20,884 nucleotides of DNA from a virus: positions 1 through 20,884 of the IMG/VR virus record IMGVR_UViG_3300035665_000283. One strand, given 5' to 3'. The number at the start of each line of letters is the position of its first letter. Position 1 is the stretch's first letter. A program made the translations under genes and the position numbers. The notes beneath the pieces were generated by a model. It saw only the letters and a program-made list of their open reading frames with translations, was not told the origin of the DNA and searched no databases. Positions 1,415 to 20,884 of the stretch are shown here, one piece after another.

Positions 1415-1828
1415 ATGGCATCATATAGATTCCGATCAGAAAAATTTACAAGTAGGGGATTTCGAGATCTATCGATATCATTTTCACAAAATCCAGCTAC
1501 TAATGATTTTGGCACGGTTAAAAATGAAAATTCAATAAAGCAATCTATTAGAAATTTGCTATTGACTAGTTTAGGGGAAAGACCATTTCAACCAGAAATT
1601 GGATCTAAACTAGCTGGTCTTTTATTTGAGCCATATGATGCATTTTTAGAAGAAGATATTAAAGAGGAAATATATAATACAGTTCAAAGATTAGAACCTA
1701 GAGTTCAATTACAAGATGTTAGGATCTATTCTGCTGAAGATAATAATGAGTTAAATGTTGAAATTGATTACACTATTGTCGGTCAATCAATTATCCAAAC
1801 TGTAGAATTCCTACTAGAAAGAACATAA
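1415..1828 (+). CDS. 25: Baseplate wedge protein gp25
   Basis: A component of the baseplate wedge of contractile tails. In T4, gp25 joins the gp6-gp7-gp53 inner ring near the central hub and helps start sheath assembly. The 137 residues are close to T4 gp25 (132). The signature of the gpW/gp25 family is clear at about residues 41-67: SIRNLLLTSLGERPFQPEIG followed by SKLAGLLFEPYD; the LxxSxGERPFxPxxG block is the family core and includes the EPR-type loop region further on (RLEPRVQLQDVRIY, about 92-105). The C-terminal strand DYTIVGQSIIQTVEF completes the fold. The start is the ATG immediately after the preceding TAA, without a strong ribosome site, so coupling is likely. Only one base separates it from gene 6. 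Confidence 0.95.
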   Translation: MASYRFRSEKFTSRGFRDLSISFSQNPATNDFGTVKNENSIKQSIRNLLLTSLGERPFQPEIGSKLAGLLFEPYDAFLEEDIKEEIYNTVQRLEPRVQLQDVRIYSAEDNNELNVEIDYTIVGQSIIQTVEFLLERT

Positions 1829-3905: not shown

Positions 3906-4100
3906 ATGCTAACAAATAGTGTTAAGATTTCCGATAGAGTTGAGTCACAAATTCCTCAGTTTATTAGAGAGGAAGATAGACAGTTTGTAGAATTATTAAA
4001 AAATTACTACAAATCTCAAGAAAAAGTAGGTAAGCCCGTTTATATACTCAATAATTTATTGAGCCTACTTGATGTCCAAAATTATGACTTTAAAACACTA
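3906..4100 (+). other. N-terminal helical module of the giant protein
   Basis: Residues 1-65 contain IPQFIREEDRQFVELLKNYY, which matches the amphipathic N-terminal helix I recall from many cyanomyovirus structural proteins (qlPeFvr..yp.Fv.fL.aYY). In those proteins it precedes the same KGT and HPAGFK modules, so it probably marks the virion anchor end of the family. That role is inferred. Confidence 0.55.
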
Positions 4101-7100
4101 AATGCAACAACAACAACTTTAAATGAGGTTGGTGTTTATGATGATTCCATTCAAGTAGAAAATGTTAGTGGATTTTTAGAATTTGATGGAACTGTTATTA
4201 TTGATGATGAAGTCATCTATTACGATAGAATTTCAAAAGGTCCTGAAGTTGTAATTACGCCAGGAATTAGCTCTGCTGAATATTTAAAGAGACAGCAAGA
4301 ACTAGAGAATATTTTCCTGCAACTAGATGGAACAAAGACTGTATTCGATCTAAGATTATTAGGTAATCCAGTAACCCCAGTAAGTGAGGATCACTTAATT
4401 GTTACCATTTATGGTGAAACCTTAATTCCTAATGTTGATTATTTCCTTGAGGGAGATAAAATTAGGTTTGCTGTAGCTCCTAGGCAAAGAGTAGGAACAG
4501 ATTCTGAAGGTTCTACGAAAATTATATACTTAATTGGTTTTTCTGATTCTACTATTAGAACTTTAGATGATAATACACAAAATAATACTAAATTTTATTC
4601 TACTAAGTTAAATTCCCAGCCATATAGCATTATTTCAGAAATTTCTGCTATTATTATTAGAAATGGTATATTACAAAAGCCATATATTGATTTTAGTATT
4701 TTTGATAATCAGATTATCTTTAAAAATAATATCTATGCTGCAGAAGCAGTTCATATTAGAACTATTGAATTTGCGACTCCGATAGTTGGGTCTGGAGCTG
4801 AAGCAATTGCTGAAATTACATCAGAGCACAAATTAGGTAGACTAATAGTAAAAAATGGTGGGTCTGGATATGACCTAAATTTCACTCCTAAAGTAACTAT
4901 TTCTAGAACAAATAATGGTGGTTTTGGTGCAACTGCAACTTCCTTAGTTTCTGGAGTAAAATCAGTAGCACTTATTGATGGTGGATTTGGGTATAATTCA
5001 TATAATCCACCATATGTTGTTGTTGAACCCCCAACAAATCCTAATGGAACTGCAGCTAAAATTTCATTAGAAGTTAATAACACTACTGGAAAAATTTCTT
5101 CTCTAAATGTAGAAGATAGTGGTAGTGGATATGATTTTATTCCTGCTATAACTTTTAGAAATCCTGGTGGAGCTAAAATAACAAAGCCAACAATTGATTC
5201 TTTAGGTAGAGTTAATATCGGATCAATTCAGGTAATTTCTGGTGGATCTGGATATAAAAATCCTCCAGTAGTTTACATAGATCCTGCTCCAGAAGGTGGA
5301 ATAAGAGCTTTAGCTGAGGCTGTAGTTAGCCCAGATGGAACTGTAGTTTCGGTCAATATAATTAATCGTGGAAGAGGGTATACCTCTATTCCTAGAGTGG
5401 CAATTGTTGATCCTGTTGGGGCTCAAGTCTTAGATGTAAGAGTCGTTGATGGTAACGTTACTGATATTGAATTGTTAACTGGTGGAGAAGGATATGAAGA
5501 CGTCCCATCAATTTACATTGTAGATAATAGAAAAGATACTAATGGTAATCCTATTGGTGGAACTGGAGCTAAAGCTGCAGCTACTATTTTTAATGGTCGT
5601 ATTACTGATATTAATGTATTAGATTTTGGTAGTGGGTATAGCGAAACTGAGCCACCTTCTATTTTTATTGCATCACCATCAGCAGCAAAAGCATCGTGTG
5701 AAGTTGGCTTTAATGAAGTTACTGGCTTCACGATTATTGAAAGTGGTCAAAATTATGAACCCTCAGCTTTAGTTGGTTGCAAGAGGGGAGTAAGTGGCGT
5801 AACAAGCTTTGACCTAAATGGGCATCAAGTATTCAAAAAAGAATCTGAATTAACACAAAGTTCACATCCTCAAGGATCAACAGTAACTAATTTAGACTCA
5901 TTATTCGTAAAGCATCTTTTAAAGAAATTCTTAAATCAATATATTCCAAATTCAAATATTGATATTAGTTCTATTAATCCTGCAGAGATTATTAAGAATA
6001 TAAGACAATACTATTCTTCAAAGGGAACTAAACTTTCAACGCAATTCATATTTAAGATTCTATTTGGTGAAAATGCTGATGTTGCATATCCCAGAGATGA
6101 AATCATCTCTCCATCTGCAGCTACTTGGTCTATTGATACAATCATTCGTGTTGAGGTAATTTCTGGCGATCCAGTAAATATTAAAGAATCTCAATTAATT
6201 CAATATGATAGTGAAGTAGATCAAAATGTAAAGGATGCTTCAGCACTAGTAGAAAACGTAATTGCAATCAATCAAGAAAATTCTACAATTTATGAATTAG
6301 CAATCTCAGAAGAGACACTAGTTGGAAATTTTGTTATTCCATACAAAACTACATTAGTTGAGCCTTTAAGTGTAGACGATCAGATCATTACAGTCGATTC
6401 TACTATTGGCTGGCCAGCTAGAAACGGAACTATCTTAATTAATAATGAAGAAGAAGTTCAATATAAAGAAAAAACATTAAACCAATTTATCGAATGCACT
6501 AGATCCGAAAATGGATTAGTTGAAGATTGGGATCCAGGCACTCCCATCTACTCTGATATTTTTGTTTATGTTAATAGAGGAACTTCATTAGAAGTTAAAA
6601 TGCGTATTTTGGGTATTGCTGAAGCAAATACCACAGTTTTGGATGATACTGGTTCATATTATCTTCCTGGTGATAAACTAACGGTATCGAAATTAGGATC
6701 TTCTGCAACTGATGAAAGATTACAAACATGGTTGTATAATGTTAAGAAATTAGTTAGAGTAGTAAGCATTTCTCCTGGTAGTATTGATGTTGGAACAAAT
6801 CAACAAACTGCTACGGTTGTATGTTCAAATGCTCATGGTTTACTAGTTGGTGATAGTGTAACAATATATGGTGCAAATCCTGTAATTTACAACGGAACGT
6901 TCTTTGTTACTTCAAGACTTGATGAATTTACTTTTAGCTATCAAATTCCTCAACCATCTATTATCGCTCCTCAGGGCAATATCTTAGTTTCCGTTGACTT
7001 AAATCGTGGTAAGTCAGATGTTTTATCGATAAACAATACTATATCAGATTATACAACAAATATACAAAATGCATTTTTCAATGCACAATATGTTTATATT

Positions 7101-10100
7101 GCTGCTTCTGGTTTACCAAACTATAAAGTTGGACCTTTTGTTGGATCAGCATTAATTCCTGGTAACCAAAGAAAATTATATAGATTCCCAAGAAAACCTC
7201 TTACTGTATCAAATAGAAGAGAGATATTGCCAGGACCAATTGCATCATTAATTAATGGTGTTTCAGTTTGGTCGTATAAAGCAAACGAAAAGGTTTTATT
7301 TGGTGGCATTACTTCAGTTTCTATTGTAAACCCAGGTCAAGGATACGATGCAGGAACTGTTCCAAATCTAAGCATTGTAGGTGGCGGTGGAACTGGAGCT
7401 GCAGCTCGTGTTACTATTAATGGCAGTCTGTATAGTTTTGATGTTGTTAATGGTGGTTCTGGTTATACATCATCTCCTCTTATTTCAATTGTTGGTGGTG
7501 GAGGTGCTGGAGCTACTGCTACTGCAGTAATTACTAATGGTAGAGTTAGCAGAGTATTAGTAGAAAATCCTGGTTCTGGATATACTTCACAGCCTACAGT
7601 TTCAATCACTGGTGGAGGTGGAAGTGGTGCAGAGGTTACTGCTCAAGTAAGAGGACCTGTTCAGTCAATTGAAGTTTTAAGTGAGGGTCAAGGATATACT
7701 TCTCCTCCATCTATTATTCTTTCCTCTGGTGAAGATGCTCTAGCTCAACCTGTAATCATTAATGGTAGAATTGTATCAATTGCTATCATTAATTCTGGTC
7801 AAGGTTACACTAGCCCACCAAATGTCATTATTAATGGTGACGGATTTGGTGCTCAGGCTAAAGCTATTATTGGCACAATAGGTGAAGATAAAGGAAAAGT
7901 TATTAGTGTTCAAATTACCAATAAGGGTATTGGTTACACTCAGGGCAATACTACTATTAGATTAGAAGCAGTTGGTCAGTCTGCAACTTTTGAAGCTGAA
8001 ATTTTCAGTTGGATTAAAAACCAAGAATACTTATTAAGTAGTAAGTATGATAAGGCAAGAGGATATGTATTTTCTGGTTATAATAACCAATATGGTGGAG
8101 AATATGCACATATTTCTGATCCTAAAGAATTAAGATATGTTGTTGGTGATAATGTATTCTTAGATCAGCAAACTAATAGATTTAAAGAAGTATCCAGTAA
8201 CTATAAGCATTCGCCAATTATTGGATGGGCGTTTGATGGAAATCCAATATATGGTCCATATGGATATTTAAATCCCACTGAACCAACTCAAGGCATAAAG
8301 AGGATGAATTCTTCTTATGCTATAAAAGAGAACTTAATATATGATCCAGACACTAATCCACAGCCAACTAGAATTGATGGTCCTTCATTAAGTGAGTATC
8401 CAGCTGGAACGTTTATCAATGATTATGAGTTTAGATTCCAATATGGAGATTTGGATCCATATAATGGAAGATTCTGCAAAACTCCAGAATACCCAGAAGG
8501 AACATATGCATACTTTATTACTATTGATGCTTCTGAAGCAGGTCTACCAGTATTCCCATACATTTTAGGTCCTAACTATAATTCACTACCAGATGAGTGG
8601 AATTTCAACCAAAGTGCAATTCAGGAAAATATCCCAACTGGTGTTGTTAGATATAGAGACCCATATGAGAATGTTGATATTGACATTGAAAGGCAGCCAA
8701 ATAGAGCCCAAGATGGCATAACCCTAGAAACTGGGGATGCCATAATTTTAGAATTAGAAGATTTGAATAGAGATGGTGTAATTTCTCCTCTAGAGGAAGA
8801 TGACATTGTAGTATTAATTGAAGAGCAAACTTTACAAATTTTTGATTATTTCCCAGCAGTTAGCTTAGCATCTCAAGTTGATATTGAAGTAGAAACTACA
8901 ACTAAATTTGAAGACGCAAAAATTGATGGTTTTGTTATTGAAAATCCAGGAATATCATATCAAGTTGGTGATATTTTATTCTTCGACAATACAGATACTC
9001 AAGGTTTCGGCGCCTCTGCAGAAATTGAGTCTATTGTTGGAAATAAAGTAGTTTCATATAACAAATCTTTAGTAAATGATCAACCATACGGAACGATCAC
9101 AACTGAAGGTGAGCATGAACTCAGAGTTGGTGATGAAGTTATTGTTGATACTTATCCTTTGCTTGATGCAACAGATAAGAGATTTAAAGTTAAAGTTGTC
9201 AGTGGTGTTGAAACAATTGAAGTAACTCAAGAAGGAGTTGGATATATTGATGACATTCCACCAGTATATGAATTAATAACAACTCAAGGTCAAGATGCAG
9301 ATTTTAAAATTAATCTAGAATCTACTGGTAATATCAGAACTGTTGATATTATCAATTCTGGTAATAATTATAGCACTACAAATCCACCACAAATACGAGT
9401 TACACATCCACAAGTATATAAGAAAGCCCGCTATTTCTTCTCAGATTTGAAAGAAAGTAATGGAGGTAAATTTGAAATTGCAGATTCTACAGTAACTTTA
9501 AATCGTGAATTATATGTTTGTGGAAATATTAATGAGTCTAATGGTAATGTTGTTAGCTATTTGGCAAAATATGATGATCAAGGAAAATTAATTTGGTGGA
9601 GAACATTAATACCTGCTGTTCCAGAATCTGGTAGCAAGAGATGCATCTTTAAAAAATTATATGTAGATACTAATTCGGGAGAAAATGATACAATTTATGT
9701 TGTTGGTGAAACTTATCCAAATGTAACTAACTTAAACTACAATCCTGATGTATTTGTAGCGAAATATGTATCTACTGTAGATTTTGCTAACAATCCAATT
9801 GGATCTATAGTTTGGAAAAAAGAAATTGCAGGTATTTCTGGTTTAACTAGAAGAGATTATGTAACTAGTGTTGTTCTAGATCAGGATAAAAATGTATACA
9901 TCGGGGGATATACTGACACCAATTCATTAAATCCCGATGATATGTGGATTATTCAAATGAATAATGATGGTGATGTTAAAGAAAAGAGAAAAATAGCTTC
10001 AGCTTCTGGATCCGAACGCTTAAATGATATTATTTGGTTAAATGATAATGAATTGCTATTTGTTGGAACTTCAGCTACTCTTGGAACTTTATTGTTAGGA

Positions 10101-13100: not shown

Positions 13101-16100
13101 AAATTACCTATCGTTTCCGATATTGCATCATTTAGACAAATCGAAAAAGTAGTTATAGTAAGTGGCGGATCCGAATATGCTCCAGGGGTATACTATGAAG
13201 TTCCTATTCTTGGTGATGGAGAGGGAGCACTTGCAAAAATTACAGTTACTAATGATCCTATTTTAGATACTGGTGTCATAACTGAAGCCTTTGTAACTAA
13301 TCCTGGAAAAGGATATACTTTTGCGTCTATTGATATCGATGGTATTCAAGGTATCTTAGGTCCAAGTTTAAGTGGTTCTGGTGCAGAGTTGAATGTAGTT
13401 ATTCCAGATGAAGGAAGTGGTGCATCAGTTTTCCTAACAGGCAAAAATATTGGTAAGATTAAAAAATTAAAGAATAATGAATTTGGTTTTGGATATTCTC
13501 ACGATTATACATTAAAACCAGAAATTACATTCCCAATCAATTTACAACTATTCAATACTTCAATTCTATCACAAATTAAAATTATAGATCCAGGTTCTGG
13601 CTATAGTTCAGCACCAGTTGTAGTAATTGAAGGTGGTGGTGGATCTGGAGCAGAGGCAGAGGCGATTGTTAAAAACAATAGACTATCTGAGATTTTAATT
13701 AAAAATCCAGGATCTGGATATTCTTCTGAGCCTGCAGTTACATTGAAATCTGAGTTTAACTATGTTGTTAACGTAGATTTAGGCTACCTTCAGTTTAACG
13801 TTCCTCATGGAATTACGACTGGTTCTGAGGTTCAACTAAGAGCAGAAAATATTGGTTCTGAAGTTGGCATTTTACCACAGCCATCATCTGCTGGTTTGAC
13901 TGCTCTCATTCCTGGTCAGGTATATTATGCAATTTCTGGAGATGAAAATTCATTAGAATCCGACCAATTGAAAATTGCGTTAACTTTAGCTGATGCTTTA
14001 AGCGGCAACGCAATTACATTCTTGACTCAAGGTTCGGGAAGACAGGTAATCTTAACAGAAGTATTTGGAGGTAAAGCAGAAGCTATCGTAGAAACTTCTA
14101 GATTCTTAGAAGGTGAAAGAGTATATCAAGGAGATAATATTGAAACAGCTTCAGCGTTTGGATATGTTTCAAAGAATAGTGGCTGGCAAATCGGACCTAA
14201 GATCTTAAAGATTGAAAATTATACAGGAGATTGGAAAGAAGGTGAAAAGGTAACTGGTATTATTTCTAGAGCATCTGGTGTTATTGATAACTTAAGTAAT
14301 GCTAGAGGTGTATTGAATATTGATTCAATTACTACTACTCCAGGTAAGTTTATTGATGACATTGGAAAACCATCAGAAATTGTTCAGAAAATTCAAGATT
14401 CCTTCTTCTACCAGAATTTCTCCTACATTATTAAATCAAGTATTCCAATTAATAATTGGAAAACTACAGTTCTCGAAAATAATCACCCAGTTGGCTTCAA
14501 GTTATTTGGTCAGCTAGAAATTTCAGGTGGTAAAGATATTTCTGGTAGAAAGGTAATTACTGATGCAGTAAAACAAGTTAATATTACAAACTATGCAAAT
14601 TCTAATCAGATAACTTCATTTGCTGCAGCACAGCCAATTTATACAACATATAATAATACTGAAGTTCTTTTCAGAAAGAAGAGACTTACCTCTTCAGAAG
14701 AAATTCTGACTTCAATTGTTAAAAAAATTGATGATATCAGTTTAGATTTTGATGGAGCTAGAACTTCATTCCCAATCTATGTTGAGGGTCAGCAAGTAAT
14801 TGCAAATGCTAATCAAATAATGATTACCTTGAATGGTATTATTCAAGCTCCAGGGCAAGCATTTGTAACTGATGGCGCAAATATTATTTTCACAGAGCCA
14901 CCTAAGCCACCATCAAAAGTTGTATATAGAACTGCTAGATTTAATCAACTTCAGATTTATAGAATTGAATTACAAAACATTAGCGGGATTTTCCCAGAAT
15001 TGGGCGCTAGAGTTAGTGGATTAACTACTGAATCTATTGCTACTGTTATTGATAGTGGAACAACTAGCATTGATGTCGTAGAAATACAAGGGAACTTCCA
15101 AATTAATGAAATTTTATTAGCAAATGCATATGGATTCCAAGCAAATATAGTATCAGTAACACCAGTAACAAGTAGAACTATTTTAGAGACAAAAGAAACA
15201 ATAACAAATACCAAAGGTGATATTGCTATTGTAGAGGAATCCAATTTAGAAAATGGTGTCATTACTAATGAAATTGCTATTAGCAGAACATCAGGAACTG
15301 CTGAGTTTGAATCTGGAAAATTCAATATTAAATTAAATGACATTATCTATTCATTAAGCTCCAAGATTGCAGCTAAAGTTGTATTCATTGCTCCATATAG
15401 AGATCCTGTTACAAATGGAGTAGTAGACACTGTAGAGATTAGTTCTGGATCATCTTTCTTTGGATTAATCTTCCAGAGACTTGTTTCCACTACAAATCCA
15501 AATATTATTCTAGATGATATCTCAAAAACTGTAATTAATCCAACAAAACTATATGACTCTCAAGTATTAATAAATGATGATTTCCTAGACTTCGAAGAAG
15601 CTAGAAATATCGAAATTGTATATACTGGAGCTACTGGTGTATTTGATGAAAAAGAAACTATTAAAAATACCAAGATAAAATATGGTTCTTTAACTGGGAA
15701 TTTCTTGCAAGGGGAGACCGTAAGAAGTAATAAAATTTCATATGCAAACAAATCTGCAGGATTATTTGCATTCAATGATACTATAACAGGAATATCTTCA
15801 GGAGCTACTGCTTCTGTGATTGGTGTTAATACTTCTTTCAAGTGGATTTATACTAAGAACATATCTGGTTCATATACACAAGATGAATACATCACCAATA
15901 GTTTAATTACTAATGTTGGTGTGACAACTTCAAAAAATATTGCGCCATCATCTACTGGATCGTTTGTATTTTCTGCTGGTGCTCAATATTTAAGGTATCC
16001 ATCTAGCGATAGAGTAGCATTTGGAGCATCTTCTGATTTTACTATTGAATTTTGGTATAGAACTTCTAGAAATAATTTAACCCAAACTTTAATTGACACT

Positions 16101-19100
16101 AGAACTAGCGGCGCTAGTGATACGGCTCTTCGTATTATATTGGATAATGCAGATTTGAAAGTATATTATTCTGGAATTTTATTAGTTCAAATATCTTCTG
16201 CAGTAACTATTAATACTTGGAAGCATATTGCTTTGGTTAGAAGTTCAGGTGTATTAAAACTATACCATAATGGAACTGTAGCTGCCACAACATATACAGA
16301 TACTAATAATTATTCAAATAAGCAAATTACTGTTGGTGCTGCATTTAATGGTGGAAATGGATTATATGGTCACTTAAGTAATTTACAAATCAAAAAAGGT
16401 GTTGCTGATTACAATGCAAACTTTACCCCAAACACTGGATATGATAACGATGATGATGCATTATCATTTGGTTTAGCTGCAAATAAGCCATTTATTCTTG
16501 CTGAGCATGAAGTATATGCTCAGTATAGTGGAAGAACTGCATCATCTACTACTATTAAATCAGTTAATACTCAAAATAGTATAATCTTAATTGAAGATGT
16601 TGATCTATCTAGAGATAATAATAGAATTGCTGCTTCGGTCATTGAAAAAAATATAGATTTTATTGCAGAAGAAGTTGTTGGTAGGTTGAGAAATAGATAT
16701 CCTGGATTTACTTATCCTTCATATGGAAGTGGATTGGATTATTGCATCCGTGATACAAAGGAGTTTATTCTTCCTGCTATAATATCTGATATCAAGTATG
16801 GTGGTAATTTTAATAGCATAATTGCAGCTAAAGGATATATCAATAGAAACAATTCTGTTGAATATATTTCAAATGAATTATTACAATCGGTTTATGCTTG
16901 GAGAGAAACTGTTCAATTATGTGTAGAACTTCTCGAAAAAGCAGACACTGATCCTCTGGAGGGAGAGTATACAAATATCCTTAGAGTTCCTGGTATTTTA
17001 ACAACTAGTATATCGCAAACAATACTTGATGAAATAATTGATCTTGGAGATATTATAGTTGATCATTTAGCTCCAACTGGTCATAGATTTAGAGATGCTG
17101 GTGATTTAATTTGGCTTAATAGAGACTTCATTGCTGATGAAGTTGTTGGTTGGCTAGAAGATCGTTATACAGTAACTGTAGGAAATGTTAATGAAGATAA
17201 GTTGAATATGCCAGGTCTTCCTGGTAAATGTGCTAGAGATATCAGAGAATATATTTTACCAGCTATAATTACAGATATAATAACAGGTGGTAATTCGGCA
17301 ACCAATAATGCAATTGATTTCTATATCGATCAAGATGAGAATGTTGTGTTGGTTGAGGATGAGTTACTTGCAATGTCAGATGCGTTGGAATTTACTAAAT
17401 TCTTAACTCTAAAGGCAATAAACAACTTATTGACAGCGCAAGGTCAAGTATATCCTCCTGGAACTCCAGTTACATATCAAGATGATTATTATTCCGCAGC
17501 ATATACTATCAAGCAACCTTACAGAGATCCAACAATTACTGTAGATCCTAAGGGCTATGATCCATCCCGTTCAAATTATAATCTATACATCGATGCAGCT
17601 AATGCTCTAGAGAGAAATAAAAAAGTTATTGCAGAAGAAGCTGTATTAACTATGCAGAATTTCACTAAGTATCATACTTTTGAAGTTCCTGGTGGCAGAG
17701 TTAATTGCACTGATGATGTTGAGGATATTCTAGATGCAATGATCCATGACCTTAGATTTGGTGGAAATTCTAGAACATATGAAGCAGCATCAATGTATAT
17801 TGATCCTGAAGATAATGGTTTGTTACATATTGAATCAGAAGCTGAAGCAACTAAGCAGGTATTCAAACTAGTTCGTGATATTGCTGCAGTAGCTATAAGA
17901 AATGGATTTGGTAGAGATAACATCAGAGGAAATGAAAATGAGCCTGTAGAAACTTACATGCGCAATGCAGTATCTGATAGTCATCTCGATGCAGCAGGAA
18001 TTATTGAAAAGAATATTAATTTTATTGCAAATGAAGCTGTATATCTAGGAACTCAACAATATCCAGCATTGGTAATTCCTGGTGGAAGTCAAAATTGTAT
18101 TGATGATGTTAAAGATGTTCTTAAAGCATTGGTATTTAATCTTCAGTATGGTGGAAATAATTGGGTATTCTATGCTGCAAATGAATATGTAAATTCTTCA
18201 AATAATTTACAACATATTACATCACAAGCAGCAGAATCTGTTTGGATTTTCAATAAAGCTCGTGACTTAGCTATTAGTGTAATGAGAAATACAACTATTA
18301 GCGTTCAGGGAACACATGGTATAACACAAACATTCTATTCTCCCGTTCCTACCTTAGATATTCAAAATCCAACTTGTCAGGCTGTAGCATCTTCAATTAC
18401 AAGCTTAATGTCTGTAATTACGGATACTATTAATAATCCTATTTCAATCACTAATGGAACTATACCATTTACTCTTCCAACTATTTGGCCAGTTCAGTAT
18501 TCATCTGGAAGTGTAGAGAGAGATGTAACTGTTGTATATGACACATCTGCTCCATCTTGGGGTCAAGTTTGTGCGGATGTAATTAGTGCAGTATTTACAC
18601 TTTCTGATATTTTAATTGAAACCGTAGAAAATGCAGAAAATAATGTAAACTATCTTACATCTATCACAAAAACTTTACCATATTCTGGCAATACAGAGTA
18701 TCAAGAATATACTTGCGATAATGTAAAATCTGCAATTAGTATCTTATTTGATACTATGATTGAGGCATTAGTTCCTGCAGGAAGAACTGAAAAGAATGCA
18801 TCACGCCTAATTCATAATAATGATCGTTACATTAGAGAAGAATCATACGCTCAAGTTTTATTAAATAATCCATCTTATACTGGAACCGTTGATTTTGCAG
18901 ATGAGATTATTAAGTCAATACGTCATGATTTAGTTACTGGCGGTAATGCTAATGTAATTAAGCACATCAATAGTTGGTTTGATGGTGAAGGTAATTTCAT
19001 TGCATTCTCAAATATTAATAGAACTAGATTATTATCACATTTAGATAATATTAGAACTCTATCGATAAATGCATGTAAACAAACACTAACTAATCCATCT

Positions 19101-20884
19101 CCAATAACATTTGAGCCTTCTTGGGTATTCCCAGATGATTTTGATATCAATGAAAAATATCTAATATCTATGGAATTATTAGATATTGAAACTTCAGAAT
19201 TTAAACTAAGATCCCTATTTAATCTTTATGATTATTCATTAAGATATAGCACATTACCTCTTAATAATTCTGTAACATTTATTGCTTCCAGTAATGTTGC
19301 TTCTAGCGGGTCAACTATCAATAGACCACACAAATTTGTAGTTGGTGATATATTAGAATATATTCCTTTGGGTGAATCAATTACATCATTAGTATCTAAT
19401 GATTATTTCTATGTTACTAGTGTAACTGGATCATCATTCACAATCAAACCAGAAATAAAATCTCAAGATAAACCATTCAATATTGGCAATACAAACAATG
19501 CATCTCAGCAATTAAGAATATCTAGAAGAACTGGTATTGAGAGAGTTACAACATTCAATGGCGATAGAAGTAAAACCCCAACTCCAATTTCTGGCGGATT
19601 TAATCCTGCTGATGTAATTTATGGAACTACTAGTGATGCTTATAGTGAATTGATTTTTGTGACTTATAATAAAGCTAAGATTGTAAAACTTTATAATAAG
19701 TTTACTATTTCTAATGTTCCAGAAAACTTTGGATTTGCAAACGGGGAAACTGTAGTTGTTCAAGGATCAACAACTAATAGAGGAGTGATTTATGAAACCA
19801 ATGGTTCGACTTATATTAATTTAATTGATATTGTTGGAACAATATCTATTGGAAATATTATCGAAGGATTAGAAACTGGAACTACTGCAACAATTGCATC
19901 AGTAAGTAACAATATGTTGATTAATCCATTTATGGGTGAATTTGTAAATGGTGATATAATCTTTAAAGAAGAAGATTCGGTTGAAGCCACAATTTCGAGT
20001 TATAATCCTTCTTATGGAAGCATCGTATCCACTGTTGGTGGTAAGTTAACTCTAGATGTAGAAACTGTAAATGGTTCCTGGAATGTAAATGAAGTTGTAT
20101 ATGGTTCCATAACTGAGAAAATCTTGGTTATGTATGATAACAGCACCACAGAATTAGTTCTTGGTGATTATATCAATGGAACAGAAATAATAAAACTATC
20201 AATTTCTAATAATGTAGTAGATACTGGCATTGCAGCTACATATAATCCAGGAGATGAAGTATTCCTTCTACAAGGAGCAGTTAAGAAAAATCCTGGCTGG
20301 AGAGCAACAGTTACAAAATATGATTATAGACCATTAGAAGGTATACACGATCTTTATATTGCAGATGTTCAATATTCCGCTATTGACGTAAGTGGTGAAG
20401 CAACTATTGAAGATCTTCTAACTCCTGGTGTGTTCATTGGTAAGTTTGCTGGATCTAATTTCCCAGTTATCTATTCATTAATTTCTGATATTGATAGAAC
20501 AGATACCATTTCATATGGTAAAGTTGTAAAAATTGATAAACTTGGAAATAATTCCACAATCTGGTTACAGGATGTTAGGGGAGAATTCTACGACAATATG
20601 ACTGTTGTAGGAAATAATGGATGGTCTGCTGCTGTTGTAACAGCAAAAGACTTGATGGCAAGGATTTCTAGATATTTCCGTGGTTTTGATGGAAGTCAAA
20701 CGACATTTAAATTATCCATTGCAAATGGTCAACCATACTTCCCAGATCCTGCTGGTCACTTATTAATATTTGTAAATGGTATCTTGCAACCTCCTGGTGG
20801 TAATAATGCATTTACTGCATTCTCAGACCAAATTCAATTTACTGAAGCTCCATCGGCTAACTCTGAATTTATCGGATTCTATGT
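3906..20884 (+). CDS. Giant modular virion structural protein / probable baseplate-linked adhesin (3' end missing)
   Basis: A single frame of at least 5,659 codons (over 600 kDa at about 110 Da per residue) runs off the right edge; I read no stop or frameshift. The start is ATG 3906, 12 bases after gp6; the ribosome site is weak. Approximate domain order by residue: 1-60 helical N terminus; 80-108 and 824-856 GFPe.NG modules; 140-290 two NG..Q.P-type modules; 313-628 GxGY block A; 655-740 KGT helical module; 1135-1363 GxGY block B; 1396-1565 YHYH-type; 1619-1630 EF-hand; 1670-1838 GxGY block C; 1860-2219 beta-propeller-like; 2225-2455 LamG 1; 2672-2726 CBM5/12-like; 2899-2980 cupredoxin-like; 3051-3288 GxGY block D; 3496-3534 HPVGFKLFG; 4016-4178 LamG 2; 4242-5069 helical repeats; then a beta-rich tail. 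No signal peptide or membrane segment. It occupies the place of T4 gene 7, but I see no gp7 homology. A host-binding fibre or baseplate adhesin is inferred. Confidence 0.93.
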   Translation, partial: MLTNSVKISDRVESQIPQFIREEDRQFVELLKNYYKSQEKVGKPVYILNNLLSLLDVQNYDFKTLNATTTTLNEVGVYDDSIQVENVSGFLEFDGTVIIDDEVIYYDRISKGPEVVITPGISSAEYLKRQQELENIFLQLDGTKTVFDLRLLGNPVTPVSEDHLIVTIYGETLIPNVDYFLEGDKIRFAVAPRQRVGTDSEGSTKIIYLIGFSDSTIRTLDDNTQNNTKFYSTKLNSQPYSIISEISAIIIRNGILQKPYIDFSIFDNQIIFKNNIYAAEAVHIRTIEFATPIVGSGAEAIAEITSEHKLGRLIVKNGGSGYDLNFTPKVTISRTNNGGFGATATSLVSGVKSVALIDGGFGYNSYNPPYVVVEPPTNPNGTAAKISLEVNNTTGKISSLNVEDSGSGYDFIPAITFRNPGGAKITKPTIDSLGRVNIGSIQVISGGSGYKNPPVVYIDPAPEGGIRALAEAVVSPDGTVVSVNIINRGRGYTSIPRVAIVDPVGAQVLDVRVVDGNVTDIELLTGGEGYEDVPSIYIVDNRKDTNGNPIGGTGAKAAATIFNGRITDINVLDFGSGYSETEPPSIFIASPSAAKASCEVGFNEVTGFTIIESGQNYEPSALVGCKRGVSGVTSFDLNGHQVFKKESELTQSSHPQGSTVTNLDSLFVKHLLKKFLNQYIPNSNIDISSINPAEIIKNIRQYYSSKGTKLSTQFIFKILFGENADVAYPRDEIISPSAATWSIDTIIRVEVISGDPVNIKESQLIQYDSEVDQNVKDASALVENVIAINQENSTIYELAISEETLVGNFVIPYKTTLVEPLSVDDQIITVDSTIGWPARNGTILINNEEEVQYKEKTLNQFIECTRSENGLVEDWDPGTPIYSDIFVYVNRGTSLEVKMRILGIAEANTTVLDDTGSYYLPGDKLTVSKLGSSATDERLQTWLYNVKKLVRVVSISPGSIDVGTNQQTATVVCSNAHGLLVGDSVTIYGANPVIYNGTFFVTSRLDEFTFSYQIPQPSIIAPQGNILVSVDLNRGKSDVLSINNTISDYTTNIQNAFFNAQYVYIAASGLPNYKVGPFVGSALIPGNQRKLYRFPRKPLTVSNRREILPGPIASLINGVSVWSYKANEKVLFGGITSVSIVNPGQGYDAGTVPNLSIVGGGGTGAAARVTINGSLYSFDVVNGGSGYTSSPLISIVGGGGAGATATAVITNGRVSRVLVENPGSGYTSQPTVSITGGGGSGAEVTAQVRGPVQSIEVLSEGQGYTSPPSIILSSGEDALAQPVIINGRIVSIAIINSGQGYTSPPNVIINGDGFGAQAKAIIGTIGEDKGKVISVQITNKGIGYTQGNTTIRLEAVGQSATFEAEIFSWIKNQEYLLSSKYDKARGYVFSGYNNQYGGEYAHISDPKELRYVVGDNVFLDQQTNRFKEVSSNYKHSPIIGWAFDGNPIYGPYGYLNPTEPTQGIKRMNSSYAIKENLIYDPDTNPQPTRIDGPSLSEYPAGTFINDYEFRFQYGDLDPYNGRFCKTPEYPEGTYAYFITIDASEAGLPVFPYILGPNYNSLPDEWNFNQSAIQENIPTGVVRYRDPYENVDIDIERQPNRAQDGITLETGDAIILELEDLNRDGVISPLEEDDIVVLIEEQTLQIFDYFPAVSLASQVDIEVETTTKFEDAKIDGFVIENPGISYQVGDILFFDNTDTQGFGASAEIESIVGNKVVSYNKSLVNDQPYGTITTEGEHELRVGDEVIVDTYPLLDATDKRFKVKVVSGVETIEVTQEGVGYIDDIPPVYELITTQGQDADFKINLESTGNIRTVDIINSGNNYSTTNPPQIRVTHPQVYKKARYFFSDLKESNGGKFEIADSTVTLNRELYVCGNINESNGNVVSYLAKYDDQGKLIWWRTLIPAVPESGSKRCIFKKLYVDTNSGENDTIYVVGETYPNVTNLNYNPDVFVAKYVSTVDFANNPIGSIVWKKEIAGISGLTRRDYVTSVVLDQDKNVYIGGYTDTNSLNPDDMWIIQMNNDGDVKEKRKIASASGSERLNDIIWLNDNELLFVGTSATLGTLLLGKIFYDGANIEVEYMNSVAFNATVVNNPRIVKDEEGDFYVTFNAVNSSTQKREKVVVFKFNPENPNTLIWSKSFTPSLAYNSIEHANIKTDIFGNIALVTSINYGVVDKQIVVTTIKYDGTILYQSTIKTPNFAGLIAKTHSVDNSGDIIITSEKEISRELAYYEFNDTANIATPTDSSKRSLGVTSWFNSSNVEYDSTFFKFGGKSAKTTSQNSLSLADINTAEIKEWTVEGFFQMESARHAVNHKPEIISVGVSDVIKYKVIVDGDTTSANYGKIQLISANSADVNTVLVSSTSTSYWNTIGVNNFNLFTLEKTNPSLGNYVYRIYFNGSKVVEYTTTNSVNLNDVRFFGPATPTSTNSWIGRADDLVVAPYAMYNESVAFTPRTSSFVLSTQKSNIIINKFDRQHTKVGTWVLTNSDLDIDTAVIENNSNALSATNFSANIASYDLGAGGLQSLDYNDVVSTAVPGVYSLASEFEIFDSKTATIPSPLGKKLKLTPKVIEKFYIKDSTVSKIDNVRELTLNQNAIFTKGSVLQQYSIVNGQKVVSVFGTIVDAPTINDENQVTYRVGKVFPAGSTFDTVSTTKYLRSTENDINEMPATFTVARTEELWSSSAVYAVGNRVFNDGKVYEAQSAGTGGTIPPTHTTGTISDGVVTWAFVETANYFDIDLNDFTYPEGEATTYADYSRFKPYSEGVYIVQILTVYSGSNFIPNDIVSIGNTITVNYAPNNDTEKVIRVSGLDKVKSISVRVLLEKDVKVVDSERTDLLYISTNSRHNYEKNDILFVEGFSTAQFNGSFFVEEVFSSRDFTFKLRSVASQDPNYVQGVISSVNFYTKHPKLLFVRGHQYVFDLSDSSNFGFYLSFSQDNQYKLEYSFNNIIRSGIPGVSSSGNEPFVRFIVAGEVTNISYYFDPSRTEENSPIGTNSFIDVIDTPYAGTFRITEVPSVFSFRFILENEPEFSSAIVQDDSEGNPITKYSTTSPRAIGPINSIKLINGGGFYQKLPIVSDIASFRQIEKVVIVSGGSEYAPGVYYEVPILGDGEGALAKITVTNDPILDTGVITEAFVTNPGKGYTFASIDIDGIQGILGPSLSGSGAELNVVIPDEGSGASVFLTGKNIGKIKKLKNNEFGFGYSHDYTLKPEITFPINLQLFNTSILSQIKIIDPGSGYSSAPVVVIEGGGGSGAEAEAIVKNNRLSEILIKNPGSGYSSEPAVTLKSEFNYVVNVDLGYLQFNVPHGITTGSEVQLRAENIGSEVGILPQPSSAGLTALIPGQVYYAISGDENSLESDQLKIALTLADALSGNAITFLTQGSGRQVILTEVFGGKAEAIVETSRFLEGERVYQGDNIETASAFGYVSKNSGWQIGPKILKIENYTGDWKEGEKVTGIISRASGVIDNLSNARGVLNIDSITTTPGKFIDDIGKPSEIVQKIQDSFFYQNFSYIIKSSIPINNWKTTVLENNHPVGFKLFGQLEISGGKDISGRKVITDAVKQVNITNYANSNQITSFAAAQPIYTTYNNTEVLFRKKRLTSSEEILTSIVKKIDDISLDFDGARTSFPIYVEGQQVIANANQIMITLNGIIQAPGQAFVTDGANIIFTEPPKPPSKVVYRTARFNQLQIYRIELQNISGIFPELGARVSGLTTESIATVIDSGTTSIDVVEIQGNFQINEILLANAYGFQANIVSVTPVTSRTILETKETITNTKGDIAIVEESNLENGVITNEIAISRTSGTAEFESGKFNIKLNDIIYSLSSKIAAKVVFIAPYRDPVTNGVVDTVEISSGSSFFGLIFQRLVSTTNPNIILDDISKTVINPTKLYDSQVLINDDFLDFEEARNIEIVYTGATGVFDEKETIKNTKIKYGSLTGNFLQGETVRSNKISYANKSAGLFAFNDTITGISSGATASVIGVNTSFKWIYTKNISGSYTQDEYITNSLITNVGVTTSKNIAPSSTGSFVFSAGAQYLRYPSSDRVAFGASSDFTIEFWYRTSRNNLTQTLIDTRTSGASDTALRIILDNADLKVYYSGILLVQISSAVTINTWKHIALVRSSGVLKLYHNGTVAATTYTDTNNYSNKQITVGAAFNGGNGLYGHLSNLQIKKGVADYNANFTPNTGYDNDDDALSFGLAANKPFILAEHEVYAQYSGRTASSTTIKSVNTQNSIILIEDVDLSRDNNRIAASVIEKNIDFIAEEVVGRLRNRYPGFTYPSYGSGLDYCIRDTKEFILPAIISDIKYGGNFNSIIAAKGYINRNNSVEYISNELLQSVYAWRETVQLCVELLEKADTDPLEGEYTNILRVPGILTTSISQTILDEIIDLGDIIVDHLAPTGHRFRDAGDLIWLNRDFIADEVVGWLEDRYTVTVGNVNEDKLNMPGLPGKCARDIREYILPAIITDIITGGNSATNNAIDFYIDQDENVVLVEDELLAMSDALEFTKFLTLKAINNLLTAQGQVYPPGTPVTYQDDYYSAAYTIKQPYRDPTITVDPKGYDPSRSNYNLYIDAANALERNKKVIAEEAVLTMQNFTKYHTFEVPGGRVNCTDDVEDILDAMIHDLRFGGNSRTYEAASMYIDPEDNGLLHIESEAEATKQVFKLVRDIAAVAIRNGFGRDNIRGNENEPVETYMRNAVSDSHLDAAGIIEKNINFIANEAVYLGTQQYPALVIPGGSQNCIDDVKDVLKALVFNLQYGGNNWVFYAANEYVNSSNNLQHITSQAAESVWIFNKARDLAISVMRNTTISVQGTHGITQTFYSPVPTLDIQNPTCQAVASSITSLMSVITDTINNPISITNGTIPFTLPTIWPVQYSSGSVERDVTVVYDTSAPSWGQVCADVISAVFTLSDILIETVENAENNVNYLTSITKTLPYSGNTEYQEYTCDNVKSAISILFDTMIEALVPAGRTEKNASRLIHNNDRYIREESYAQVLLNNPSYTGTVDFADEIIKSIRHDLVTGGNANVIKHINSWFDGEGNFIAFSNINRTRLLSHLDNIRTLSINACKQTLTNPSPITFEPSWVFPDDFDINEKYLISMELLDIETSEFKLRSLFNLYDYSLRYSTLPLNNSVTFIASSNVASSGSTINRPHKFVVGDILEYIPLGESITSLVSNDYFYVTSVTGSSFTIKPEIKSQDKPFNIGNTNNASQQLRISRRTGIERVTTFNGDRSKTPTPISGGFNPADVIYGTTSDAYSELIFVTYNKAKIVKLYNKFTISNVPENFGFANGETVVVQGSTTNRGVIYETNGSTYINLIDIVGTISIGNIIEGLETGTTATIASVSNNMLINPFMGEFVNGDIIFKEEDSVEATISSYNPSYGSIVSTVGGKLTLDVETVNGSWNVNEVVYGSITEKILVMYDNSTTELVLGDYINGTEIIKLSISNNVVDTGIAATYNPGDEVFLLQGAVKKNPGWRATVTKYDYRPLEGIHDLYIADVQYSAIDVSGEATIEDLLTPGVFIGKFAGSNFPVIYSLISDIDRTDTISYGKVVKIDKLGNNSTIWLQDVRGEFYDNMTVVGNNGWSAAVVTAKDLMARISRYFRGFDGSQTTFKLSIANGQPYFPDPAGHLLIFVNGILQPPGGNNAFTAFSDQIQFTEAPSANSEFIGFY
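4143..4226 (+). repeat. GFPe.NG-type beta module, copy 1
   Basis: Residues 80-107 (DSIQVENVSGFLEFDGTVII then DDEVIYYD) resemble residues 824-856 (VDSTIGWPARNGTILINNEE, then VQYKEK). Both have the pattern 'I.V....GF...NG.i.I..E.v.Y'. The two copies flank the first GxGY block and the KGT module. Confidence 0.6.
4323..4773 (+). repeat. Two tandem 'NG..Q.P' type beta modules
   Basis: Residues 140-213 (HLIVTIYGETLIPNVDYFLE, then GDKIRFAVAPR) and 222-290 (AIIIRNGILQKPYIDFSI, then DNQIIFKN) share 'lLv..NGilQ.P..dF...g..I.F...P'. The same module returns at 14745-14943 and at the right edge (from 20676), making four copies. The pattern is common in T4-like marine phage structural proteins; the function is unknown to me. 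Confidence 0.65.
4842..5790 (+). repeat. GxGY repeat block A (8 copies)
   Basis: Eight diverged repeats whose motif Tyr residues fall at about 322, 363, 409, 450, 492, 530, 578 and 617, a period of 38-48 residues. Motifs read GGSGY, GGFGY, GSGY, GGSGY, GRGY, GGEGY, GSGY and GQNY, each preceded by a strand of the type 'v..i.v...' and followed by '..PP.v.i'. The DNA copies are well diverged, so this is an old protein-level repeat, not a recent tandem duplication. Confidence 0.85.
5850..6123 (+). other. Helical 'RxYYSSKGT' module
   Basis: Residues about 655-740 contain FVKHLLKKFLNQYIPN, then NIRQYYSSKGTKLSTQFIFK and ILFGENADVAYPRDEII. This matches the block 'iR.fYrsKGTe.SfkllFrilF.e...i.YP' that I recall in many cyanomyovirus virion proteins. 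It is helical and most likely a virion-assembly module. Confidence 0.65.
6123..6783 (+). other. Conserved beta region following the KGT module, with GFPe.NG copy 2
   Basis: Residues about 740-960. It includes VDSTIGWPARNGTILINNEE (from about 830), then NQFIECTRSENG and GTPIYSDIFVYVNRG. The block 'VDSTiGfPe.Ng...i..EeI.Y..Kt.nqF..CtRg' is typical of this cyanophage family. No catalytic motif is seen; the region reads as a stack of small beta modules. Confidence 0.55.
6807..6956 (+). repeat. 'AHGL-VGD' beta module, copy 1
   Basis: Residues 968-1016: CSNAHGLLVGDSVTIYGANP, then YNGTFFVTSRLDEFTFSY. The pattern 'aHgl..GD.v.i.g....fNGtf.V......F.f' recurs at about 2828-2880 and, more weakly, at 5140-5183. 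I know it as a recurrent Ig-like or beta-sandwich unit in phage structural proteins. Confidence 0.6.
6990..7308 (+). other. Conserved linker with 'NGV..YK' strand before block B
   Basis: Residues about 1029-1134: AASGLPNYKVGPFV and GPIASLINGVSVWSYKANEK, then VLFGGITSV. The 'gp...INGV..wsyk....v.yG.i' pattern is one I recall just upstream of GxGY and YHYH modules in cyanophage proteins. I can assign no function. Confidence 0.45.
7308..7995 (+). repeat. GxGY repeat block B (6 copies)
   Basis: Six repeats with motif Tyr at about 1147, 1187, 1226, 1264, 1301 and 1344, a period of 37-43 residues. They are the most regular set: NPGQGY, NGGSGYTSSP, NPGSGYTSQP, SEGQGYTSPP, NSGQGYTSPP and NKGIGYTQGN, several followed by a Gly run (GGGGTGAAA, GGGGAGATA, GGGGSGAEV). 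Each unit looks like two or three strands joined by the Gly-rich loop. Confidence 0.88.
8091..8600 (+). other. YHYH-type module
   Basis: Residues about 1396-1565. HSPIIGWAFDGNPIYGPYGY (residues 1435-1454) is the signature of the YHYH family ('siGya.DG.pIYGp.gy'). It is followed by PAGTFINDYEFRFQYGDLD and NGRFCKTPEYPEGTYAYFIT, which belong to the same module in other phage proteins. The literal Tyr-His-Tyr-His string that names the family is not seen; YKHS stands just before the block. Function is not established. Confidence 0.72.
8760..8795 (+). other. Canonical EF-hand-type calcium loop
   Basis: Residues 1619-1630 read DLNRDGVISPLE, matching D-x-N-x-D-G-x-I-x-x-x-E at all key positions (1, 3, 5, 6, 8 and 12). 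Flanking residues are acidic (LELE before, EDD after), and the segment after it is helical or strand-like (IVVLIEE). Calcium binding is a reasonable inference for a sea-water phage; a single loop of the dockerin type is possible. Confidence 0.6.
8910..9420 (+). repeat. GxGY repeat block C (3 diverged copies)
   Basis: Three weaker copies with motif Tyr at about 1685 (ENPGISYQVGD), 1780 (QEGVGYIDDIPP) and 1822 (NSGNNYSTTNPPQIRV). Spacing is irregular, with the first pair separated by another beta segment. Confidence 0.6.
9483..10563 (+). other. Beta-propeller-like region
   Basis: Residues about 1860-2219 hold six or seven strand-rich units of the SBBP or quinoprotein-like type. Examples: ELYVCGN ... 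YLAKYDDQGKLIWWRTL; TIYVVGE ... DVFVAKY ... IVWKKEI; VVLDQDKNVYIGGYTD ... WIIQMNNDGDVKEKRKI; ELLFVGTS; VVVFKFNPENPNTLIWSKSF; VTTIKYDGTILYQSTIK. Each has 'g..yv.G.t' then 'a.yd..G...w...'. In other phages this module often precedes LamG, as here. Binding of a surface ligand is inferred. Confidence 0.6.
10578..11268 (+). other. LamG/concanavalin A-like domain 1
   Basis: Residues about 2225-2455 begin LAYYEFNDTANIATPTDSS and include FKFGGKSAKTTSQNSLSLAD, then EWTVEGFFQME, YWNTIGV, YRIYFNGSKVVEYTT and SWIGRADDLVVAP. This order (small Gly-Lys-S-A start, 'wTvEgff', 'f.i..nG..v', 'igr.ddl.v') is that of LamG-type jelly-roll lectin folds. These usually bind carbohydrate or protein surfaces. Confidence 0.65.
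11919..12083 (+). other. CBM5/12-like carbohydrate-binding motif
   Basis: Residues 2672-2726: ELWSSSAVYAVGNRVFNDGK, then VYEAQSAGTGGT, IPPTH and VTWAFVE. Trp at 2675 and 2721 bracket 'Y.vG..V...g..Y.a...G....P.....v.W', the layout of family 5/12 chitin- or cellulose-binding modules and of similar short modules in phage fibres. Ligand is unknown. Confidence 0.55.
12387..12545 (+). repeat. 'AHGL-VGD' beta module, copy 2
   Basis: Residues 2828-2880: STNSRHNYEKNDILFVEGFS, then QFNGSFFVEEVFSSRDFTFK. It aligns by eye with the copy at residues 968-1016 ('H.y..gD...v.g.....fNGsF.V.......F'). Confidence 0.55.
12600..12845 (+). other. Cupredoxin-like beta module without copper ligands
   Basis: Residues about 2899-2980: HPKLLFVRGHQYVFDLSDSS, then FYLSFSQDN and ISYYFDPSR. 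The pattern 'hP.l.l.rG.tY.FdlSdsSn.g..l.fS' followed by a 'YYf' strand is a cupredoxin-like module common in cyanophage structural proteins. The usual C-x-x-H copper site is absent, so it is probably only a structural fold. Confidence 0.5.
13056..13770 (+). repeat. GxGY repeat block D (6 copies)
   Basis: Motif Tyr at about 3064, 3091, 3137, 3197, 3233 and 3272. The last two are close to consensus (DPGSGYSSAPVVVIEGGGG and NPGSGYSSEPAVTL); the first four are diverged (GGGFY, GGSEY, PGKGY, GFGY). Spacing is 27-60 residues. Confidence 0.75.
14103..14340 (+). repeat. 'GExVxG' beta repeats, first group
   Basis: Residues about 3400-3478: FLEGERVYQGDNIETASAFG and WKEGEKVTGIISRASGVIDN. The unit 'f..GE.V.g..S.A.g.v' of about 20-30 residues recurs at about 15060-15150, 15640-15830 and 19730-20240. 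Confidence 0.5.
14340..14520 (+). other. 'QDSxFYQ...HPVGFKLFG' module
   Basis: Residues about 3479-3534: KIQDSFFYQNFSYIIKSSIP, then NNWKTTVLENNHPVGFKLFG. It matches the block 'QDs.yYQdySYvIks...i..W...v...HPaGfk.FG' that I recall near the end of shorter cyanomyovirus virion proteins of this family. In this giant protein it is followed by more than 2,100 further residues. Confidence 0.65.
14745..14943 (+). repeat. 'NG..Q.P' type beta module, copy 3
   Basis: Residues about 3614-3679: DFDGARTSFPIYVEGQQVI, then MITLNGIIQAPGQAFVTDG and ANIIFTEPPKPPSKVVYRTA. It is very similar to the module at the right edge of the window and clearly related to the two at the N terminus. Confidence 0.7.
14950..15950 (+). 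other. Beta-rich linker with further GExVxG repeats
   Basis: Residues about 3682-4015. No named domain is evident. It holds GExVxG-like units (FQINEILLANAYGFQANIVS; FLQGETVRSNKISYANKSAG; FAFNDTITGISSGATASVIG) and stretches rich in Thr, Ile and Asn (ETKETITNTKGDIAIVEES). It links the HPVGFKLFG-NG..Q.P end of the core to the second LamG domain. Confidence 0.45.
15951..16440 (+). other. LamG/concanavalin A-like domain 2
   Basis: Residues about 4016-4178. A textbook LamG_3 pattern: GSFVFSAGAQYLRYPSSDRV, then DFTIEFWYRTS, LRIILDNADLKVYYSGILLV, TWKHIALVRSSGVLKLYHNG and YGHLSNLQIKKGVADY. 'FTIEFW', 'W.HiAlvR..g.l.ly.nG' and 'G.lsnlqi.kG.A.Y' are diagnostic. It is a jelly-roll lectin fold; a cell-surface glycan ligand is inferred. 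Confidence 0.85.
16629..19110 (+). repeat. Array of about six alpha-helical repeats with a conserved Cys
   Basis: Residues about 4242-5069. Repeat starts near 16629, 17100, 17592 and 17988, with more diverged units near 18370-18780 and at 18795. The unit is 'n..fIAeEav......P.f..PGG..nC.dDv.diL.a...dl.yGGN....aa..Yi.......i..e...s......rd.a..amrn'. Clear cases: IEKNIDFIAEEVVGRLRNRY; LNRDFIADEVVGWLEDRY; RNKKVIAEEAVLTMQNF; IEKNINFIANEAVYLG. The Cys before the acidic pair is kept at residues 4280, 4442, 4601, 4731, 4889 and 4937. I recall the same repeat in other cyanophage virion proteins; its function is unknown. Confidence 0.78.
19323..19455 (+). repeat. 'AHGL-VGD' beta module, weak copy 3
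   Basis: Residues about 5140-5183: RPHKFVVGDILEYIPLGE, then NDYFYVTSVTGSSFTIKPE. It keeps 'pH.f.vGD.l......n.yFyV..v...sFti' but lacks the NG pair. Confidence 0.45.
19728..20240 (+). repeat. 'GExVxG' beta repeats, last group
   Basis: Residues about 5275-5445 carry four or five units: FANGETVVVQGSTTNRGVIY; IGNIIEGLETGTTATIASVS; FVNGDIIFKEEDSVEATISS; WNVNEVVYGSITEKILV; and a weaker GDYINGTEII. They are short beta hairpins with Gly-Glu or Gly-Asp at the turn. Confidence 0.5.
20676..20884 (+). repeat. 'NG..Q.P' type beta module, copy 4, cut by the window edge
   Basis: Residues from about 5591 to the edge: FRGFDGSQTTFKLSIANGQP, then YFPDPAGHLLIFVNGILQPP and FSDQIQFTEAPSANSEFIGF. This is the strongest copy. 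In other cyanophage proteins I recall this same sequence followed by several hundred residues more, so the gene probably extends well past the window. Confidence 0.75.

Follow-up and report, generated by a model that had tools for sequence, protein, structure and literature searches.

We show by sequence comparison that a giant open reading frame in a metagenomic virus record (IMGVR_UViG_3300035665_000283) stands in the gene order 25-6-7 and contains a gp7 core in two stretches with a huge insertion between them, and an arm in which five phycobiliprotein-homologous domains accompany a LamG-like domain. The frame probably encodes the greater part of a Kyanoviridae gp7, a structural protein that would also have a role in host contact. 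Giant gp7 proteins are already known, some of them annotated as such; tandem phycobiliprotein-like domains in a virion protein appear to be the new element, judged from the open-licence literature, our search of which found no report of such modules in phage tails.

The gp7 locus and its giant proteins

The window, i.e., the whole stretch of DNA analyzed here, is the entire 20,884-nt virus record, and the giant gene (3906..20884, + strand) is thus cut by the contig end. Its frame begins with an ATG at 3906, 12 bases past the gp6 stop codon (3893), and continues stop-free for 5,659 codons to 20882 with an open 3′ end, occupying 16,977 of the 20,884 bases (81%), as the first-pass annotation had described. 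On the same strand lie gp25 (1415..1828; PF04965, 1.2e-17) and gp6 (1830..3893; PF21379, 9.5e-18; PHROG 219), both baseplate wedge proteins, the latter being the partner of gp7 in T4. The order 25-6-giant, which is also found in the isolates read, matches the T4 order 25-6-7 and, together with the homology to T4 gp7 detailed below, bears out the baseplate-linked gene 7 position proposed earlier. The contig start truncates a PAAR-type protein (3-401; PHROG 281) that lies, together with two small genes (PHROG 3577 and PHROG 1414), upstream of gp25.

The first-pass annotation was also right in expecting a protein above 600 kDa; its view that such a size is rare did not stand, and it overlooked that the gp7 core is split and that phycobiliprotein-like modules are present. 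In tblastn searches against 50,697 phage records, 487 match the first 3,000 aa of the window protein, 282 doing so in a single place over 80% or more, and 462 match the last 2,959 aa; nearly all of these are cyanophages and every one shows <60% identity. The protein at this locus measures 896 aa in Melnitz-2, 1,007 in phiM12, 1,032 in T4, and 1,937 in S-CREM2, 3,007 to 4,307 aa in six further Kyanoviridae, 5,512 to 7,351 aa in nine phages, and 8,573 aa in P-RSM6, so that the ten closest giants compared span 5,512 to 8,573 aa. By these searches, giant gp7 proteins are common in cyanomyoviruses; size by itself is already a known kind of observation, and we rejected it as news since giants are usual in Kyanoviridae. 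Their genes count among the larger ones in abundant marine phages, and the annotation is mostly “virion structural protein,” other record names being gp7, baseplate wedge initiator, and putative fiber. PHROG 701, whose category “head and packaging” poorly fits a baseplate wedge protein, matches the window giant along its full length. With the PHROG 701 giants of S-SZBM1, P-TIM40, S-WAM1, and P-RSM6 it forms one family along the whole length, at 42 to 55% identity in the main BLAST segments, the differences being in module count and arm length. The modules are unnamed in the annotations of the cyanomyovirus giants seen. A second very long gene occurs after gp8 (locus L002, 348-7688; locus L004, 35464-40001); in S-SZBM1 the gene after gp8 is 7,341 nt long and named tail fiber connector, with a DUF4815 counterpart in P-TIM40.

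Integrity of the frame and selection on it

With the last 300 aa of the window frame as the query, 25 IMG/VR loci were matched. Two contigs from these loci, G001 (98.7% nucleotide identity to the window, 0 gaps across 20,884 bases) and G002 (91.2%, 2 gap columns), whose metagenome numbers differ from that of the window, continue the frame uninterrupted to the stop that the first-pass annotation had sought beyond the contig, giving a protein of 6,021 aa. The intact G001 copy is 657 kDa with a pI of 4.7, 619 kDa of which corresponds to the portion in the window. Downstream of the stop on both contigs are genes of about 530, 505, 614, and 515 aa.

Between the window and G002, dN/dS is 0.041 over the 5,659 codons (0.355 synonymous and 0.020 nonsynonymous differences per site), and no 150-codon bin exceeds 0.10, the top bins being 0.10 (codons 1-150) and 0.08; between the window and G001, it is 0.139 overall, from 187 differences. 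Judged by these codon comparisons, the giant frame is under purifying selection throughout. The gene at this locus has 0 internal stops in 19 phages, including T4, that of P-RSM6 having been read for 8,398 of its 8,573 aa. That the frame is an assembly artefact or chimera, as might be suspected of a gene truncated at the end of a single metagenomic contig, is vanishingly improbable, given the identical frame on two other contigs and in isolates and the purifying selection along its whole length; on these comparisons, chance, chimera, and hidden frameshift can for practical purposes be excluded as its source. Diversifying selection in the arm was rejected too, with bins 4201-4950 at 0.01 to 0.03 between the window and G002; in the same comparison of close relatives, dN/dS across the phycobiliprotein-like modules is without sign of such selection.

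A small gp7 core split by a huge insertion

Two window segments, aa 560-1000 and aa 3360-3700, were aligned as profiles by hhalign with a family profile of four T4-type gp7 proteins. Window aa 694-729 align with T4 gp7 726-761 (96% probability, E 2.5e-9; score 81.3), and window aa 3513-3539 align with T4 gp7 870-896 (68%, E 4.8e-5; score 48.7), the second half being the weaker one. The best control scores were 22.9 among 30 column shuffles per core half, 13.0 and 20.4 with the reversed gp7 family, and 17.9 among seven other T4 baseplate-region proteins. A profile search of the first half against PDB recovers T4-type gp7 at 6.4e-5 and 1.0e-4, with no further match below E 0.6. By BLAST, the window protein aligns with Melnitz-2 gp7 at aa 668-810 (160-297) and aa 3432-3540 (567-673; 8e-16 for the second half), and the first half also matches phiM12 gp7. 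On these lines of evidence, the core halves were placed at aa 621-870 (5766..6515, + strand; hhalign, PDB profile search, and BLAST) and aa 3400-3545 (14103..14540, + strand; BLAST and hhalign).

The interval between the core stretches is 108 residues in T4, where it holds domain V (PF21427, aa 766-861; Pfam), and 2,783 residues in the window protein. Hence, a huge insertion separates the halves of a small gp7 core, to which about 2,480 further residues are added as an extension. T4 gp7 (PDB 5hx2 and 5iv5) shares with the giant its place after genes 25 and 6 and the two core stretches in equal order, but it has 1,032 aa against 6,021 and lacks a counterpart of the phycobiliprotein-like modules. 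In the window and ten giants, the spacing of the core anchors is steady (2,397 to 2,609 residues), whereas the stretch between two arm anchors, in the window and ten relatives, varies from 1,387 to 4,109 residues; T4, phiM12, Melnitz-2, and six shorter relatives were left out of the arm measurement, and the Bellamy value was dropped because one anchor matched at the wrong place. Thus, the wedge part is short and constant, the insertion is constant within the group, and the arm is the part that changes in size.

The homology to T4 gp7 marks the giant as a probable baseplate wedge component. The name “putative fiber” given to the syn9 protein, and the fact that BLAST from the window protein misses T4 gp7, could suggest instead an unrelated tail fibre that took the place of gp7 at this locus. 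We consider this very improbable, because both core halves occur in the T4 order with the controls passed, the first half matches gp7 in PDB, and shorter intermediates occupy the locus, namely, the proteins of Melnitz-2 (896 aa), phiM12 (1,007 aa), and S-CREM2 (1,937 aa).

T4 gp7 is present in six wedges of the baseplate. We propose that, as in T4, the short gp7 core would anchor the giant in the wedge alongside gp6 and gp25, in which case the insertion and arm would project from the baseplate rim and touch the cell. The split core would thereby tell how giant gp7 proteins are held in the virion.

Repeats and accessory domains

The N-terminal part and the insertion carry about 20 GSGY-type repeats of some 38 residues each, including seven at aa 309-597 (4830..5696, + strand) and six further ones at aa 1133-1361 (7302..7988, + strand), both sets recovered with an iterated HMM. 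The latter set is predicted to be beta-rich, with model pLDDT mostly above 90. A Foldseek search with a 481-aa model gave no match at E <0.001 (probability ≤0.08 among the 50 matches listed), and the sequence search of the repeats was likewise without a known family. A stretch of 67 residues at 57% identity to them occurs in Escherichia phage ET-SD-TH (6889-7089; unannotated record, H142). The insertion further contains a YHYH domain (PF14240, aa 1395-1542; 8088..8531, + strand; E 2.9e-28), for which the 481-aa model has low pLDDT, and the arm contains a LamG-like domain (PF13385, aa 4026-4162; 15981..16391, + strand; E 7.3e-13 and 1.7e-14). Candidate CBM5/12, SBBP, and kelch matches were all under their cut-offs. 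The last 362 aa of the intact G001 copy match 0 Pfam families at E ≤0.1, and an Ig-like end of the giant was dropped on that result.

Phycobiliprotein-like modules in the arm

Five helical modules span aa 4242-5063 of the C-terminal arm on the + strand: module 1 (aa 4242-4349; 16629..16952), with CIRD at Cys4280; module 2 (aa 4397-4511; 17094..17438), with CARD at Cys4442; module 3 (aa 4563-4668; 17592..17909), with CTDD at Cys4601; module 4 (aa 4695-4799; 17988..18302), with CIDD at Cys4731 and then a helix with Cys4824; and module 5 (aa 4964-5063; 18795..19094), in which the cysteine is lost. Their earliest sign was a match of the window to the Phycobilisome family (PF00502) at 21.7 bits, below its curated cut-off of 22.2; in 5 of 19 phage genomes, PF00502 exceeds this cut-off, with in-frame neighbors. 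Single modules match PF00502 at E ≤0.1 in 9 of 27 cases (best E 0.0044), the sole other family being matched by 1 of 27.

Against PDB sequences, profiles built from two modules (A3), 27 single modules (A6), and nine extended modules (A7) reached best E values of 9.3e-4, 4.2e-6, and 2.1e-5, respectively. Among the best 60 of 107 matches of A6 at E ≤10, 58 carry names of phycobiliprotein or phycobilisome subunits, and the other two are a “bacterial fluorescent protein” and an unrelated entry; the best 60 of 90 for A3 comprise 54 phycobiliprotein or phycobilisome subunits and 6 smURFP or near-infrared fluorescent proteins, which are themselves allophycocyanin derivatives. The matches lie mainly within the first half of the module, and the A6 alignments place the module cysteine and aspartate on the KCARD of phycocyanin alpha. 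The profile matches thus show the modules to be homologous to phycobiliproteins.

Structure prediction points the same way. The AlphaFold2 model built from the 13 sequences of A3 has middling confidence (pLDDT 60.7, pTM 0.60). Foldseek against PDB lists the phycobiliprotein fold in 40 of 50 matches, including ranks 1 to 18, with probabilities of 0.97 to 1.00, against ≤0.38 for the remaining ten listed, and with E values never <0.001 (0.11 or more). All 50 matches listed by VIA-align have this fold (Z 14.7 to 15.8, above the warning level of about 13 for helical models; 124 to 141 residues, rmsd 2.1 to 2.7), spanning model residues 1-151 and chain residues 35-38 to 167-184. Hence, a globin-type fold is predicted for the modules. 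Foldseek against BFVD has no phycobilin name among the 50 matches listed, and 15 matches at E ≤0.001, the named ones being structural and tail proteins of cyanophages or uncultured phages. A pattern search of bacterial genome contigs with one module as its single-sequence query gave 116 pattern matches and no relatives.

The modules thus share with phycobiliproteins (PF00502) and the BBAG bilin-binding globins described in PMC10151467 the sequence of the first half and the Cys-x-x-Asp motif, and with solved phycobiliprotein chains the predicted globin-type fold over residues 37-177, the N-terminal part (residues 1-36) being outside the match. Unlike phycobiliproteins, they are tandem domains within a probable virion protein, with a putative bilin. 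Their number in gp7 ranges from 0 to 10 among the relatives, some counts including fragments. The same modules also occur in P-HM2, MED4-213, S-PM2, and S-RSM4, there in a different gene, that for the short tail fibre or a YapH-type tail protein, and a module search of the S-PM2 protein at the gp7 position was without a match. The smallest module-bearing frame seen, of 928 codons, holds a single module in S-SKS1 (W22, 17448-17774).

A conserved candidate site for bilin attachment

We counted cysteines in 27 nonredundant modules from the window and nine IMG/VR loci. A single column, that of the attachment cysteine, holds 22 of the 28 module cysteines, with an aspartate three residues later in 23 of the 27 modules; CxxD is complete in 21 of 27, including 4 of the 5 in the window (CIRD, CARD, CTDD, and CIDD), and CXRD in 8 of 27. 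The window protein has 16 cysteines in its 5,659 residues, 9 of them within 4242-5063. CXRD is a frequent chromophore site of phycobiliproteins, in which the cysteine bonds the bilin, and related globins with CXQD are described, some of which load bilin without a lyase (PMC10151467). A second conserved cysteine lies in the helix after the module (4824 in the window; GGCANV in relatives), its pattern being present in 4 of 27 modules and, by eye, in one more. Its resemblance to the second site of the beta subunit (beta-153-like) is a hint only, the alignment of this helix with phycocyanin beta scoring −1.4 bits.

One possibility is that phycobiliproteins or sister globins gave rise to the modules, which serve the host-contact arm only as spacers or protein-binding domains, bilin-free and with cysteines used for packing or disulfides. 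The absence of CxxD from 6 of 27 modules, the presence of the CXRD arginine in just 8 of 27, the variable number of modules (0 to 10), and the further cysteines in linkers would all fit such spacers. Against this stand the concentration of the cysteines exactly in the attachment column with the aspartate three residues on, the linkers after modules 1 and 2, which have no cysteine as a pairing partner, and the link of the modules with CpeT genes described below. We would give this bilin-free alternative an even chance; that at least some modules bind bilin is a tentative proposal that we hold with slightly less confidence. Under the latter proposal, the modules would be globins that still bind bilin, which the host or the phage would supply, or would at least be shaped to bind phycobiliprotein-type ligands.

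Co-occurrence with CpeT

The survey of accessory genes covered 23 phage genomes, of which 19 had been picked by gp7 length before the CpeT question arose and 4 were added later; CpeT was counted at E ≤0.001 (Pfam), and modules were detected by A6 anywhere in the genome. Of the 16 genomes with modules, 12 encode CpeT, a bilin-lyase family, versus 0 of the 7 without (one-sided Fisher 0.0013, kinship ignored), the latter lacking it even at E ≤10. Weaker CpeT frames in ACG-2014d and P-SSM7 rise above the cut-off when their pieces are summed, bringing the count to 14 of 16 versus 0 of 7, and ACG-2014f has a subthreshold frame and only two weak modules. In P-SSM7 (NC_015290, 13416-14535), the weak CpeT-like frame is directly upstream of a bilin reductase gene. 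Bilin reductase was found in 4 of 19 genomes, 3 of these with modules, and heme oxygenase in 2 of 19, 1 of these with modules; on these counts, we rejected both as close followers of the modules.

Equally well poised is the alternative that phage CpeT acts on host phycoerythrin, with the link to modules stemming from the shared descent of one large phage group. PMC10452541 gives this host-antenna reading and has CpcT serving the beta-Cys153 position and not the Cys84-type site, which is the site that most modules keep. The statistics ignore phylogeny, psbA is itself associated with modules (16 of 16 versus 4 of 7, p 0.02), and the CpeT link weakens to 12 of 16 versus 0 of 4 when the count is confined to the 20 genomes with psbA (p 0.014, kinship ignored). 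S-SKS1 has one module and no CpeT, and S-SSM7 has bilin reductase and heme oxygenase and no module. S-CREM2 is module-free, though its group is reported to have another lyase type, cpcV. On the other side, plastocyanin, also an auxiliary gene, is not clearly linked to modules (10 of 16 versus 2 of 7, p 0.15), and the CpeT count reaches 14 of 16 versus 0 of 7 once both weak frames are included. In S-SRM01 (NC_070963, 207459-209450), a psbA-like match falls into three pieces, two of which read through stop codons, possibly an intron or a broken gene.

Host contact and light

Returning to the proposed structural gp7 with a projecting insertion and arm, the LamG-like domain, the YHYH domain, and the highly length-variable arm make host binding a plausible role of the giant, and the modules may take part in this contact. 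A shorter, module-free gp7, ORF122 of S-CREM2, is a virion protein (91 unique peptides, 27.2% coverage; Table 3 in PMC10665884). When S-PM2d was kept with Synechococcus in a chemostat, S-PM2d081, S-PM2d088, and S-PM2d218 were among the genes that changed (PMC9910659), and S-TIM4 adapted to poor hosts mainly via tail and baseplate genes (PMC6224464). S-PM2d081 lies directly after gp6. S-PM2d088 (43949-53965; 21950-31966 in L106) holds modules at 46019-48388 and is thus a module-bearing giant outside gp7, and S-PM2d218, judged on length alone, probably corresponds to a 3,792-codon frame, also module-bearing, at 156.7-160.7 kb.

Some cyanophages adsorb exclusively, or more efficiently, in light. 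S-PM2 is said to have been among the phages with light-dependent adsorption in the 2010 work of Jia et al. PMC7112961, which cites Jia et al. 2010 for light-affected adsorption of Synechococcus phages, estimates the dark adsorption of P-HM2 as near zero and that of P-SSP7 as not so. Three places in P-HM2 match the MED4-213 modules, including one within a tail fibre protein that is 88% identical. Phage genes for bilin synthesis and lyases are, in the passages of PMC10452541 and PMC13198022 consulted, explained only as help to the host antenna. The modules bring together two matters, the light-dependent adsorption of cyanophages and the use of phage bilin genes. A bolder proposal, which we regard as unlikely on present evidence, is that the tails of many cyanomyoviruses are biliproteins, in which gp7 and tail-fibre modules with covalent bilin would make adsorption light-dependent, the bilin coming from the host or from phage pebS/pcyA/ho1 and being attached by the modules themselves or by phage CpeT. 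If so, phage bilin genes would gain a target within the virion itself, and pigment on the tail would make both matters testable by zinc-fluorescence and absorption assays.
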